Of a stretch of 21,714 nt of DNA, positions 10,869-18,806 are shown piece by piece. The DNA is taken from positions 1 through 21,714 of the IMG/VR virus record IMGVR_UViG_3300031963_001036. The stretch is one strand, 5' to 3'. The position numbers and the translations under genes are program-made. Source of the DNA: a virus. How positions within the stretch are numbered: the stretch's first letter is position 1; each line of letters begins with the position of its first letter. The notes beneath the pieces were generated by a model. It was not told where the DNA came from, searched no databases, and saw nothing but the letters and a program-made list of their open reading frames with translations.

Positions 10869-11411
10869 TTATTTTATTAAGTGATAGTCTTTATTCAGAT
10901 AATCCTCGTAATGCTCTCCTACGTTCTCTTTTAGCCTTGTTTTGCAGTTTTTAAGTGAGTTGAATATAGAAGATAGTGAAATGTTTGCTCCTTTGCTTAT
11001 GTCTCTCATAGAGTCCGAGCTGGTAGAGTATAAACTAAACAGCAGTTGGTCATATTCATGCCATGAGTTAATCTCTCTTTTTATTTTAGTAGTTAAAATA
11101 TCGTAAGATTCGTGTTTCTGTTGGTCAATCTCCTCATAAGATAAATTTCTAATCTCGTCAATGTCTACTTTACAATACTTGTTCTTCTGCTTGACGTATG
11201 TAAGATAAGTGTTTTTTAAACTTATCCAAATGTAAGCTCGGTTAGGTTCACCAGCTTCTGTAATGCACTTGCTACCTGAGTTACTGTCGTAGAAACGTAC
11301 GTACATTTCCTGTACAATGTCTTCAGCAAAGTTAGATTCGCCAAATGAACGGACAATGTCTACCCATTCTTTGTGATATCTGCATAATATATCTGACCAT
11401 TTGTTACTCAT
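10869..11411 (-). CDS. phage sigma-70-like (ECF-type) transcription factor
   Basis: A 180-residue protein with the two-domain layout of small sigma factors. Residues about 12-75 match region 2: an initial helix (WVDIVRSFGESNFAEDIVQEMYVRFYD pattern, with the usual ED-IVQEM core) and a second helix ending in LTYVKQK. Residues about 110-165 match region 4, with a helix-turn-helix around MRDISKGANISLSSIFNSLK (135-154). It would bind core RNA polymerase and direct it to phage promoters. As the first gene of the block that includes all virion genes, it is a good candidate for the late-gene activator. Similarity is remote and by pattern; a terminase-linked regulator without core binding is an alternative. 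Confidence 0.72.
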   Translation of the reverse strand: MSNKWSDILCRYHKEWVDIVRSFGESNFAEDIVQEMYVRFYDSNSGSKCITEAGEPNRAYIWISLKNTYLTYVKQKNKYCKVDIDEIRNLSYEEIDQQKHESYDILTTKIKREINSWHEYDQLLFSLYSTSSDSMRDISKGANISLSSIFNSLKNCKTRLKENVGEHYEDYLNKDYHLIK

Positions 11412-16520: not shown

Positions 16521-17453
16521 TTAAAATGGGCAATCGTCAGGCTTGACGTAATTCAAGCTGTTGTTTATTTGTATTTCTGTTTGTTTAGGTGGTTTAGGTC
16601 GGTAGTTTCGTAATGGGTCTGTTCCTCCTATGTGAAAACCTTTTCCGCTATTAAAATCGCAGAATACAAAGTCATCTATTGCTGTTATCTTTCCTCCAGT
16701 GTCCGTGTCTTTAATCTTCTCTACTGAAATCAAAGTTACATATTTCATTGATTCGTGTTTTATTAGCCTGTGGATTACAAACATATCATCACATCGGTTA
16801 AGGAACGCTTTACCTCCTTCAATGTGGTCTTTCATTGGTGGTTTAAGATGTCCTTTCCAACTATGGCTGTCAGGATAAATATTCCCACTTCTACCGCTTT
16901 CCGTGTTCGGGTGCGTGTTTATGTACAAGGTCTTTCCTGTTTCGTTTACAAATTGTCTAGCCATGTTTAAAAACTTGTAGTTACCCTCGTAACCCATTTC
17001 ACGGTCAAGTCCTGTATACGGGTCAATCAAACAAGCGTCACACTCTGTTTCTTTAAAGACCTTCAACAGCTCGTTCGGTTTGTATAGTTTGCTATTGTCC
17101 ACAAATTCAAAATACTGCTCTATGTACGCTGAGTAATTTCGTATCTCCATTTCTGAAAGCTCTTTGAAATTCTTGCCAGTGTATATCTGAATCATGTCTC
17201 GTAGAATCTGTCCGTATTGATTCTCTCCTGACCATAAACAGAATGTTACTCCGTGTTTTAGTGCAAGTGATAGAAAGTACCAATTTATCCAGTATGTCTT
17301 TCCTACGTTGTCGTGACCTAAAATGATGTTTAATTGTTTAGGTTTAAATCGTAAATACTCATCCATGTAGCAGTCAAGTCCTAGACCTTGCTTTATTTTG
17401 CCATTACGATAGTCTAGTAAGTATTTTAAGTGTTGTCCTTTAGTATTTTTCAT
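16521..17453 (-). CDS. RecA/DnaB-type replicative P-loop ATPase
   Basis: A 310-residue RecA-fold ATPase, probably the phage replicative helicase or helicase loader. Walker A is GHDNVGKT (46-53), preceded by the strand LNIILG; Walker B is [11 protein letters not shown], near residues 138-148. A strand ending in [10 protein letters not shown] (His sensor-type) and a late segment [12 protein letters not shown]-like helix are consistent with DnaB-like C-terminal domains. There is no N-terminal DnaB domain, so the family is the short RecA-like kind. The end PDDCPF resembles an SSB-type tip. The start at 17453 (ATG) overlaps the preceding gene; a TTG four codons earlier is possible. Confidence 0.78.
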
Positions 17454-18102
17454 ATCCGAGTTCAATTGCTTTTCTTACCAATGGGTCTAATTGGTCTAGT
17501 GGTAGTTTATCAGGTTGTTTAGGATAATTCCTTTTTAACCATTTATTAGCTGTCAAATATAAAGATTTATACTTATCGTTTCCTTTGTAGTTTTCAATGT
17601 CATCTAGTGTACTGTCAATTTGTTCTTTAGTATATTCTTCGCACAACTTTTCAAAATGGATTTTAGATATAGACAATTGAGCGAAGCTCCTATATATATT
17701 TTCTTCTTTATTATTCTTATCATTCTTGTTTGTTGTTAGTTGTTTGTTAGTTGATTGTTGTTTGTTTGTTAGTTGCGTGTTAGCTTCAGTTTCTTCGCTT
17801 TGGTAATCTGCATATTTACAGATAGTTACAACAGTATATTTGTTTGTTGTTTGTGTGTTAATTTCGTTCGTATTTTCAAACTTTTTTAAAAGTGTTCTTA
17901 CAGTCTGTAAACTGATACCAGTATCACTAGAAATCTTACCATAAGATGTTATAAACTGACCTTTGTTTATATCAATACCTTGCCAAGTTCCATCTTTATG
18001 GTTCGCTTTTAAAATTAGATACATAAATAAATGAACTGCTTCGCTTTTATTAAACCACTCCCAGTTTAAAAACTGCCTATGCAATTTAATCCAACCGCTC
18101 AT
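17440..18102 (-). CDS. replisome organizer-like protein with winged helix and DnaD-like end
   Basis: A 220-residue protein. Residues 1-100 form a winged-helix domain typical of phage replication initiators (starts [16 protein letters not shown], with a [20 protein letters not shown] segment and [14 protein letters not shown] as recognition helix, 63-76). A low-complexity linker rich in TNKQ (103-135) follows, then a helical C-terminal part ending in [20 protein letters not shown]. It probably binds the origin and loads the ATPase encoded next. The linker DNA carries 11-bp repeats that do not follow the codon period, and could be the origin itself, as in the lambda O gene. Overlap with the next gene is 14 bases. 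Confidence 0.8.
17732..17786 (-). repeat. 11-bp tandem repeats inside the replication gene (possible origin)
   Basis: Minus-strand units of 11 bases: CAACTAACAAA (17775-17765), CAAACAACAAT (17764-17754), CAACTAACAAA (17753-17743), CAACTAACAAC (17742-17732), plus a degenerate AAGCTAACACG (17786-17776). A related CAAACAACAAA lies at 17853-17843. Eleven is not a multiple of three, so codon repetition alone does not explain it; spacing is about one helical turn, as in origin iterons. Confidence 0.55.
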
Positions 18103-18265
18103 CTGTAAGATTTATATAAGAAATTAATGAATCAACTTCATTATTATTCAATATGTAATAAGTTGACCCGTGACCGTTTAAAATACTAACCATTAATTCA
18201 CCGTTATCAGTACGATAAAATTCAATTTCTCCGTCTTCGTTTTCAGATTTAATAAATAATCTCAT
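18086..18265 (-). CDS. small acidic protein, first gene of the replication operon
   Basis: A 59-residue protein ([20 protein letters not shown] at the start) with beta-strand pattern in the first two thirds (EIEFYR, LMVSIL, STYYIL) and a helical end. It is acidic and of unknown function. The ATG at 18265 was chosen because the upstream in-frame extension runs through the leader terminator. It is separated by about 20 bases from the T-tract and overlaps the replication gene by 17 bases, so its expression depends on read-through of the leader structure. Confidence 0.68.
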
Positions 18266-18284: not shown

Positions 18285-18337
18285 AAAAAAAACTCTACAA
18301 ATCCACCGCATCTCACCTCAGTTTCATTATAGAGTTT
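18285..18337 (-). terminator. intrinsic terminator/attenuator in the replication leader
   Basis: Minus-strand RNA forms AAACUCUA (18337-18330) with UAGAGUUU (18297-18290), a perfect eight-pair stem with a 32-base loop, and ends in eight U. It lies between the promoter and the first gene of the replication operon, so it should act as an attenuator or as the end of a small RNA. The loop contains GUGAGAUG, which pairs with the first hairpin's loop. Confidence 0.78.
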
Positions 18338-18376
18338 AAATAACTTCTTCAGGTTCGTATAATGTGAGATGGAACC
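18285..18376 (-). ncRNA. structured leader or small RNA with predicted kissing loops
   Basis: The RNA would start about at its first stem, GGUUC (18376-18372) with GAACC (18356-18352). The 15-base loop begins with CAUCUCAC (18371-18364), which is perfectly complementary to GUGAGAUG (18316-18309) in the loop of the terminator hairpin. The two hairpins plus the eight-pair loop-loop contact make a compact, about 92-base pseudoknotted RNA. A four-codon frame (Met-Lys-Leu-Arg-stop) lies in the second loop. No known riboswitch family is recognised. It could be a regulatory leader for the replication operon or a free small RNA. Confidence 0.6.
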
Positions 18377-18381
18377 GTTTG

Positions 18382-18389
18382 CAAATATA
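18382..18389 (-). promoter_or_regulatory. promoter of the replication operon and leader
   Basis: An exact -7 box TATATTTG on the minus strand, within TTATATTTGC, the same core as at 14.65 and 20.35 kb. The expected start site, 5-7 bases downstream, coincides with the first stem of the leader. A good -33 TTG at 17-23 bases is not seen; a TTG lies 27 bases upstream. Unlike the other two promoters, it lacks the TATAAC half of the palindrome. Confidence 0.65.
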
Positions 18390-18410
18390 ACTATAATTTT
18401 CTAATTTGTT

Positions 18411-18806
18411 TTATGTCAAGTAAACACCTAAGTGAATTTTTTGCTTGATAACTAACAAGTCAGTGTAGTCATTAGCTGAAAGAACGTCATCGAATATGCT
18501 TGACTGGATGTTCTTATTCATAGCTATAAAATCGTGTTTTATTTGAGCTATGTCTGTTCTGTAAATGACATCACCTATCTGAGTGTATGTCCTATGCTTT
18601 TTAATTGCATGAATCACCGTAGCATGGTCTCTGTCAAATAGTTTACCTATTGCTTCAAGTGACATTCCTAAACTCCTCAGCTTGAACATTATATAACTCC
18701 TCATACCTACCAGCTCACGCTTTCTGCTTCTACTTGACAAGTTGTATTTATCTATTAAAGTAATCGCATTACTCACCTTTGATTTATCACTATTTATTGT
18801 CTTCAT
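18411..18806 (-). CDS. stand-alone DnaA domain IV-like DNA-binding protein
   Basis: A 131-residue protein whose first half matches the C-terminal DNA-binding domain of DnaA: a basic helix (SSRSRKRELVGMRSYIMFKL, 24-43), then MSLEAIGKLFDRDHATVIHA (48-67), the DnaA signature region that contacts the DnaA box. It lacks the AAA+ ATPase domain, so it should bind DnaA-like boxes without ATP-driven assembly. It could start phage replication, bring in host factors, or compete with host DnaA at oriC. The second half (80-131) is helical and unassigned. The ATG at 18806 was chosen; a TTG three codons up is possible. Last gene before the replication promoter. Confidence 0.78.
   Translation of the reverse strand: MKTINSDKSKVSNAITLIDKYNLSSRSRKRELVGMRSYIMFKLRSLGMSLEAIGKLFDRDHATVIHAIKKHRTYTQIGDVIYRTDIAQIKHDFIAMNKNIQSSIFDDVLSANDYTDLLVIKQKIHLGVYLT

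Follow-up and report, generated by a model that had tools for sequence, protein, structure and literature searches.

A kissing-loop terminator before the replication genes of Bacteroidota phages, a candidate transcription-attenuator leader

What does a short structured RNA do when it lies between a promoter and the replication operon of a phage and ends in a terminator? The question is raised by a 21.7-kb virus fragment (the window, i.e., the whole 21,714-nucleotide stretch of DNA that was analysed), in which such an element occupies positions 18377 to 18285 of the minus strand. A first-pass annotation of the locus had described a compact, pseudoknotted RNA between promoter and replication operon with a terminator at its end, and this description holds. 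The element is probably an undescribed switch deciding the transcription of the replication genes. The best explanation, for which the case is somewhat better than even, is that it acts in cis as a conserved transcription-attenuator leader for the phage replication operon.

Architecture of the element

A TATATTTG sequence (18382-18389, minus strand, as are all features of the element) is the -7 box of Bacteroidota sigma-A and puts the predicted transcript start at about 18377. The first hairpin, P1 (18352-18376), consists of five pairs, GGUUC (18376-18372) with GAACC (18356-18352), and a loop of about 14-15 nt; compensatory changes are seen in all five pairs. The first eight loop nucleotides, CAUCUCAC (18364-18371; kissing arm 1, or PK5), pair with the loop of helix P3, and six of the eight kissing pairs covary. 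The remainder of the P1 loop (18357-18363) is unpaired and conserved as an AnnATA-type segment in the alignment of relatives. It is followed after the P1 stem by a conserved linker (18338-18351), A/G-rich and then UUAUU-like, for which no conserved pairing partner was found among the covarying column pairs.

The terminator hairpin P2 (18290-18337) has outer arms AAACUCUA (18337-18330) and UAGAGUUU (18297-18290). The eight-pair stem noticed in the first-pass annotation is real, but the full stem is longer and has 11 pairs (18337-18327 with 18300-18290), of which one is G-U, in agreement with the minimum free energy fold; nine of the 11 covary on both sides. The run of eight U that had been placed after the stem likewise exists (18285-18292), but three of the eight are paired in P2, so that five lie downstream of the 8-bp stem. 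The predicted transcript end is at about 18285.

The apical region between the P2 arms is 26 nt long (18301-18326). It begins with a conserved internal loop, UGAA (18326-18323) opposite GGAU (18304-18301), that separates P2 from helix P3 (18305-18322; ACUG at 18322-18319 with CGGU at 18308-18305). P3 closes the kissing loop and had been overlooked in the earlier inventory of three helices; three of its four pairs covary and the fourth is an invariant G-C. Within the P2/P3 loop lies kissing arm 2 (PK3), GUGAGAUG (18309-18316), which also shows covariation, and its pairing with CAUCUCAC joins the loops of P1 and P2 in a kissing helix of 8 bp. P1, the P2 stem and the kissing arms were each found exactly at the coordinates first proposed for them.

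The internal loop has features of its own. Of 64 sequences, 62-63 keep its central GA on either strand, and in L020 and Cellulophaga phage phi18:3 the strands are swapped to GGAU/UGAA. Retention of the GA on both strands together with this exchange suggests a loop compatible with tandem sheared G-A pairs. Since the kissing arms are flush with P1 and P3, a nearly continuous stack through the kissing helix is plausible. Predicted energies are -17.6 kcal/mol (mean) for the terminator hairpin and -11.4 for the kissing duplex without loop terms.

A Met-Lys-Leu-Arg frame in the second loop had been thought able to let ribosomes disrupt the loop-loop contact. A start-like NUG with an early stop is common among close relatives because the conserved UGAA internal loop supplies its U and G. 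The frame is absent from the same place in the divergent elements of phi18:3 and of Flavobacterium phage morran9-1. A leader-peptide (translation-coupled) attenuator was rejected, as there is no conserved leader ORF and the frame is not kept at that site in the phi18:3 and Flavobacterium-phage elements.

Conservation and covariation

Chance pairing, or an ordinary terminator, is the simplest alternative, and the folding energy by itself is unremarkable: the single-sequence value is not significant (z -0.75, in a calculation that ignores the pseudoknot). Relatives were collected with the O-like protein as query (43 loci), with the DnaA-like protein (9 loci) and with two DNA patterns from early members. 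Looser early descriptors anchored on TAnnTTTG gave many false matches and were replaced by a context-free descriptor of the four helices with a shuffled control. Scanned over both strands of 292 loci (2.45 Mb), this descriptor gave 130 matches at a score of 26 or more, at least one of which (L083, score 26) lacks the consensus and was excluded; locally shuffled copies, whose scores stop at 25, gave none. The window element scores 28. Thus the earlier judgement that the pairings are beyond chance is borne out by the scan.

All four helices are retained in 64 distinct relatives from phage contigs; these were aligned by helix from 67 distinct sequences at a score of 25 or more, unrelated or deviant ones being left out. 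When 36 elements, all below 90% identity to each other, are aligned with MAFFT, 95.0% of the cells assigned to pairs are paired, vs 72.3 ± 0.9% after shuffling (0 of 500 shuffles reach the observed value), and two-sided compensatory changes occur in 23 of 28 pairs. Sliding the partners by one column lowers pairing to 47-50%. When all column pairs are ranked by an APC-corrected G statistic, the top 18 all fall within the four helices, with kissing pairs at ranks 1, 2, 5, 8 and 9. The descriptor demands complementary arms, so counts for the sequences selected with it are biased upward; elements preceding the O-like gene in loci chosen by protein similarity, where this bias does not enter, show the same covariation by eye. 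The covariation check that the first-pass annotation had proposed is therefore passed in its three stems and in P3 as well. Covariation in four helices refutes chance pairing or an ordinary terminator, an explanation that now has next to no probability. The architecture, and with it the placement of the promoter, is established by sequence and covariation.

A covariance model found the element as its sole match in the window (90.8 bits, E 9.4e-16, the element being among the 36 model sequences). No conserved anti-terminator pairing, including one of the linker with P2, appears among the top covarying column pairs. Many protein-controlled attenuators have no mutually exclusive anti-terminator structure.

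Promoter, gene context and distribution

Of 65 elements, 62 have a TAnnTTTG box upstream, and in 57 the box ends 4-5 nt short of P1. In F. psychrophilum the sigma-A box TAnnTTTG lies at -12 to -5 (PMC9723704); with this spacing the RNA would begin at or beside P1. The upstream neighbour in the window (18411-18803, minus strand) is a protein in which only a DnaA domain IV helix-turn-helix is recognised (PF08299, E 9.5e-14). Downstream, also on the minus strand, are a 59-aa ORF with no family match (18086-18265), at a position that is variable among relatives, a predicted lambda-O/DnaD-like replication initiator or helicase loader (17440-18102; phrog_2514, E 2.6e-32, and phrog_345) and a predicted primase/helicase-type ATPase (16521-17465; phrog_18375, E 6.7e-18). 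Messenger RNA could also enter the element from upstream in the window group, where about 30 nt, with no terminator in them, separate the end of the preceding gene from P1.

The gene that follows shares the strand of the element in nearly all annotated loci, and the gap between the two is most often 18-28 nt; the exceptions come mainly from small genes that the ORF caller overlapped or passed over. The identity of this first gene varies, and it can be an ORF of about 60 aa, the O-like gene, a NUMOD4/HNH gene or a DUF6291 gene. For example, a NUMOD4/HNH homing-type endonuclease (L003 954-1484) is inserted right after the element, ahead of the O-like gene. An HNH gene likewise occupies the position after the element in phage phi46:3.

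Other features of the same phage were observed in the window. A second TATATTTG box on the minus strand (about 20470 to 20410) is followed by about 50 nt and a terminator (CCCCTAGAAATAGGGG + T6); the stretch is nearly identical in L004, L007, L009, L032, L045 and L049 and is possibly a further short phage RNA. Spaced tandem repeats of 11 bp (TTGTTTGTTAG type, 17726-17778) inside the O-like gene resemble the origin iterons inside lambda O. A DNA match to a Porphyromonas phage proved to lie inside the O-like gene (about 17695-17772), not in the element. A sigma-factor-like protein is encoded at 10869-11411 (phrog_1740, E 1.8e-6).

Contigs of relatives with the element are commonly about 27-35 kb, and it is present in 21 of 23 related contigs of that size, usually as a single copy. 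Two clearly have two copies; in one of these the additional copy stands ahead of a DUF6291 gene and a helicase-like gene, i.e., a replication-type operon. In L239 and L320 each phage carries two different alleles. Among cultured phages, Cellulophaga phage phi18:3 has the element (48 bits, E 1.3e-6), flanked by the DnaA-like/gp008 region on one side and the gp007-gp006 replication genes on the other. Divergent elements of the same plan (box, hairpin, terminator hairpin and a 7-9 bp loop-loop complement) have been detected in Cellulophaga phages phi13:2, phi19:3, phi46:3, phi19:1 and phi10:1, in Olleya phage Harreka_1 and in Flavobacterium phages morran9-1, snork6-1, mumin6-1, snusmum6-1 and filifjonk9-1, where they occupy the corresponding gap just before the replication operon. 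These elements were found by a relaxed scan without a shuffled control, and the covariance model gives only 19-27 bits on morran9-1, phi13:2, phi19:3 and phi46:3. Their strongest support is covariation of the kissing arms among close relatives (GTGAGAAG/CTTCTCAC, GTGAGACG/CGTCTCAC and GTGGAACG/CGTTCCAC) in stretches 82-83% identical to morran9-1. Homology of the divergent variants to the window element is likely.

The Flavobacterium phages bear on whether the operon is read through the element. In morran9-1, snork6-1, snusmum6-1 and filifjonk9-1 a separate terminator-like hairpin lies upstream and seems to close the previous operon, and no TAnnTTTG box was seen between the element and the next start codon. 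Operon mRNA from the element's promoter must then pass the element; given the upstream hairpin, that promoter is likely the operon promoter, and read-through would be necessary. No published transcriptomes of these phages were found in the literature.

Further structures accompany the element in several cultured flavophages. The kissing element is separated from the ORF by a small hairpin, GGUAAUCUUAAAACC, whose closing pairs covary (L328 3000-3056; in L335, L336 and L325 before an ORF of about 70 aa). Morran9-1 also has an Rfam DUF805b RNA (L328 1557-1591, 52 bits) upstream of the ParB-like gene gp040.

Outside these phages the element was not encountered. A search of 395 sampled Bacteroidota genomes by pattern and by model, the latter with strict filters, 10 candidates scored per genome and no positive-control genome in the set, gave no prophage or host copies. 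Five genomes with distant O-like relatives have no element, and no significant match was found upstream of distant O-like homologues in a Vibrio phage, both Dulem viruses and Bacteroidales genomes. Dulem virus 31 (L324, PP511318.1) is filed under Microviridae, yet it has 35.8 kb and a replisome organizer; the taxonomy label looks wrong.

Attenuation, alternatives and known systems

A promoter, a structured leader and an intrinsic terminator are all present before the operon's first gene and on its strand, as in an attenuator leader. Transcription would start at or within about 2 nt of P1, and the RNA would form P1, the terminator hairpin (P2, the tandem-GA-type loop and P3) and the 8-bp kissing helix, with the U-run next. 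The apical region of the terminator is unusually large, and P3 and the kissing contact would for that reason help the terminator form in time. The default product would be a terminated RNA of about 92 nt. The replication genes would be expressed by polymerase reading through, perhaps in a fixed fraction of passages; alternatively, read-through would depend on a factor of the phage or the host, or on an RNA that pairs with one loop, to prevent the kissing contact or the hairpin. Termination, read-through and the role of kissing are thus predicted steps. The attenuator reading is favoured by the four-helix covariation, the fixed distance from promoter to P1, the sense-strand placement near the first gene and the second copy in one phage, again ahead of a replication-type operon. 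Against it, constant spacing to the next gene would also be expected from a mere operon-boundary marker.

The terminated RNA of about 92 nt might instead be the functional product, a stand-alone small RNA that acts in trans on host or phage targets or binds a protein, its position before the operon being incidental. Its own promoter and terminator at fixed distances, the conserved stretches of the P1 loop and linker that stay unpaired, and the compact, tertiary-like fold would all suit such an RNA. However, it would not need the sense-strand proximity to the operon's first gene seen in nearly all annotated loci, nor the similar placement of the second copy in one phage. The pairing arms vary freely, so they are not a conserved seed, and CATCTCAC, searched for as an extra trans target in the window, is present at the two arms alone. 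We regard a free small RNA as unlikely; the sense-strand placement before the first gene favours the leader.

No known RNA class had been recognised at the outset, and comparison with Rfam agrees. None of 4227 Rfam 15 families matches the window at its gathering threshold; below the threshold, the highest-scoring matches (12.6 bits, with E values of 2.7 and 8.2) are to implausible families. The loci of 19 relatives gave only the unrelated DUF805b match, away from the element, and RF01695 (P1/P7 c4 antisense RNA) matches neither the window nor the relatives' loci tested. A term search of the main text of two surveys of candidate structured RNAs showed no such motif in the matching passages, and no description of the element was found in Rfam or the literature searched. 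A type III toxin-antitoxin RNA, made of tandem pseudoknot repeats with a ToxN-like gene, was rejected: the element is a single unit and the 59-aa ORF has no family match.

A number of known systems share parts of the plan. Loop-loop pairing in purine riboswitches and a pseudoknot in preQ1 riboswitches are linked to a terminator. If the element were a ligand-binding riboswitch, with an aptamer formed by the kissing loops and a terminator of its own, the conserved unpaired nucleotides, the rigid predicted fold and the terminator at the end could be explained. In contrast to the purine and preQ1 classes, the element has no Rfam riboswitch match and is linked only to phage replication genes, with no metabolic gene; its P1 loop, moreover, differs in the Flavobacterium-phage variants. 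A riboswitch is very improbable on this evidence. In plasmid attenuators of the pT181 and pIP501 type, replication genes are attenuated by a leader terminator with loop-loop pairing, and a countertranscript of the opposite strand serves as regulator, whereas the pairing of the element lies within the sense RNA. The put RNA of phage HK022 also has two hairpins at the very start of the early transcripts that affect termination; it suppresses downstream terminators by binding RNA polymerase and has no terminator of its own, unlike the element, which contains one.

The closest functional analogue is the CI RNA of satellite phage P4 (seqA-seqC), described in PMC4825925 as a replication-operon leader with premature termination and complementary segments. 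The element too has complementary segments within the leader of a phage replication operon. The P4 RNA, however, is processed and pairs in trans, whereas here the loops belong to adjacent hairpins of one short RNA and one of them lies in the terminator itself. In Gifsy-1, IsrK is a short phage RNA that ends at an intrinsic terminator while a fraction reads into the downstream operon, resembling what is predicted here; host group and downstream genes differ, and the IsrK passages report no kissing-loop terminator (PMC4825925). The element is accordingly filed as a new RNA family that probably works like a transcription attenuator, not as a P4/c4 member.

P4 raises the further possibility of copy-number or superinfection control, in which terminated RNA accumulates with the genomes, pairs by its loops with nascent leaders of the same allele and enforces termination, so that alleles would define compatibility groups. 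As in P4, complementary segments lie in a replication-operon leader that ends in a terminator, and allelic variation is pronounced: L003, L032, L049, L045 and L011 have DnaA-like genes 92-96% and promoters 90-100% identical to those of the window, yet their elements are just 60-76% identical and have other kissing arms, and phages infecting the same two cultured hosts carry several alleles between them. Diversifying selection is possible. Recombination is the simple explanation, as homology of L049 to the window breaks at the element start. Loops in cis should also out-compete pairing in trans, and the LMO6/LMO9 phages are reported as virulent (PMC7077304), so that classical immunity is not needed. 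Such control is therefore a doubtful reading.

With attenuation as the preferred reading, the finding is of a structured RNA with very strong covariation in several genera of Bacteroidota phages, at the point where phage DNA replication is turned on. For a conditional terminator, dependence on pairing of its loop with an upstream hairpin would be an unusual design. Since versions occur in phi18:3 and in phages of Flavobacterium LMO6/LMO9, function is directly testable in cultured phage-host pairs. A more speculative proposal, to which we give little credence, is that a widespread RNA class exists in which the terminator loop kisses the upstream hairpin and the terminated RNA also limits replication in trans, allele-specifically. 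If such RNAs do act on their own and on co-infecting phages in this way, they would constitute RNA-encoded compatibility groups of phages.
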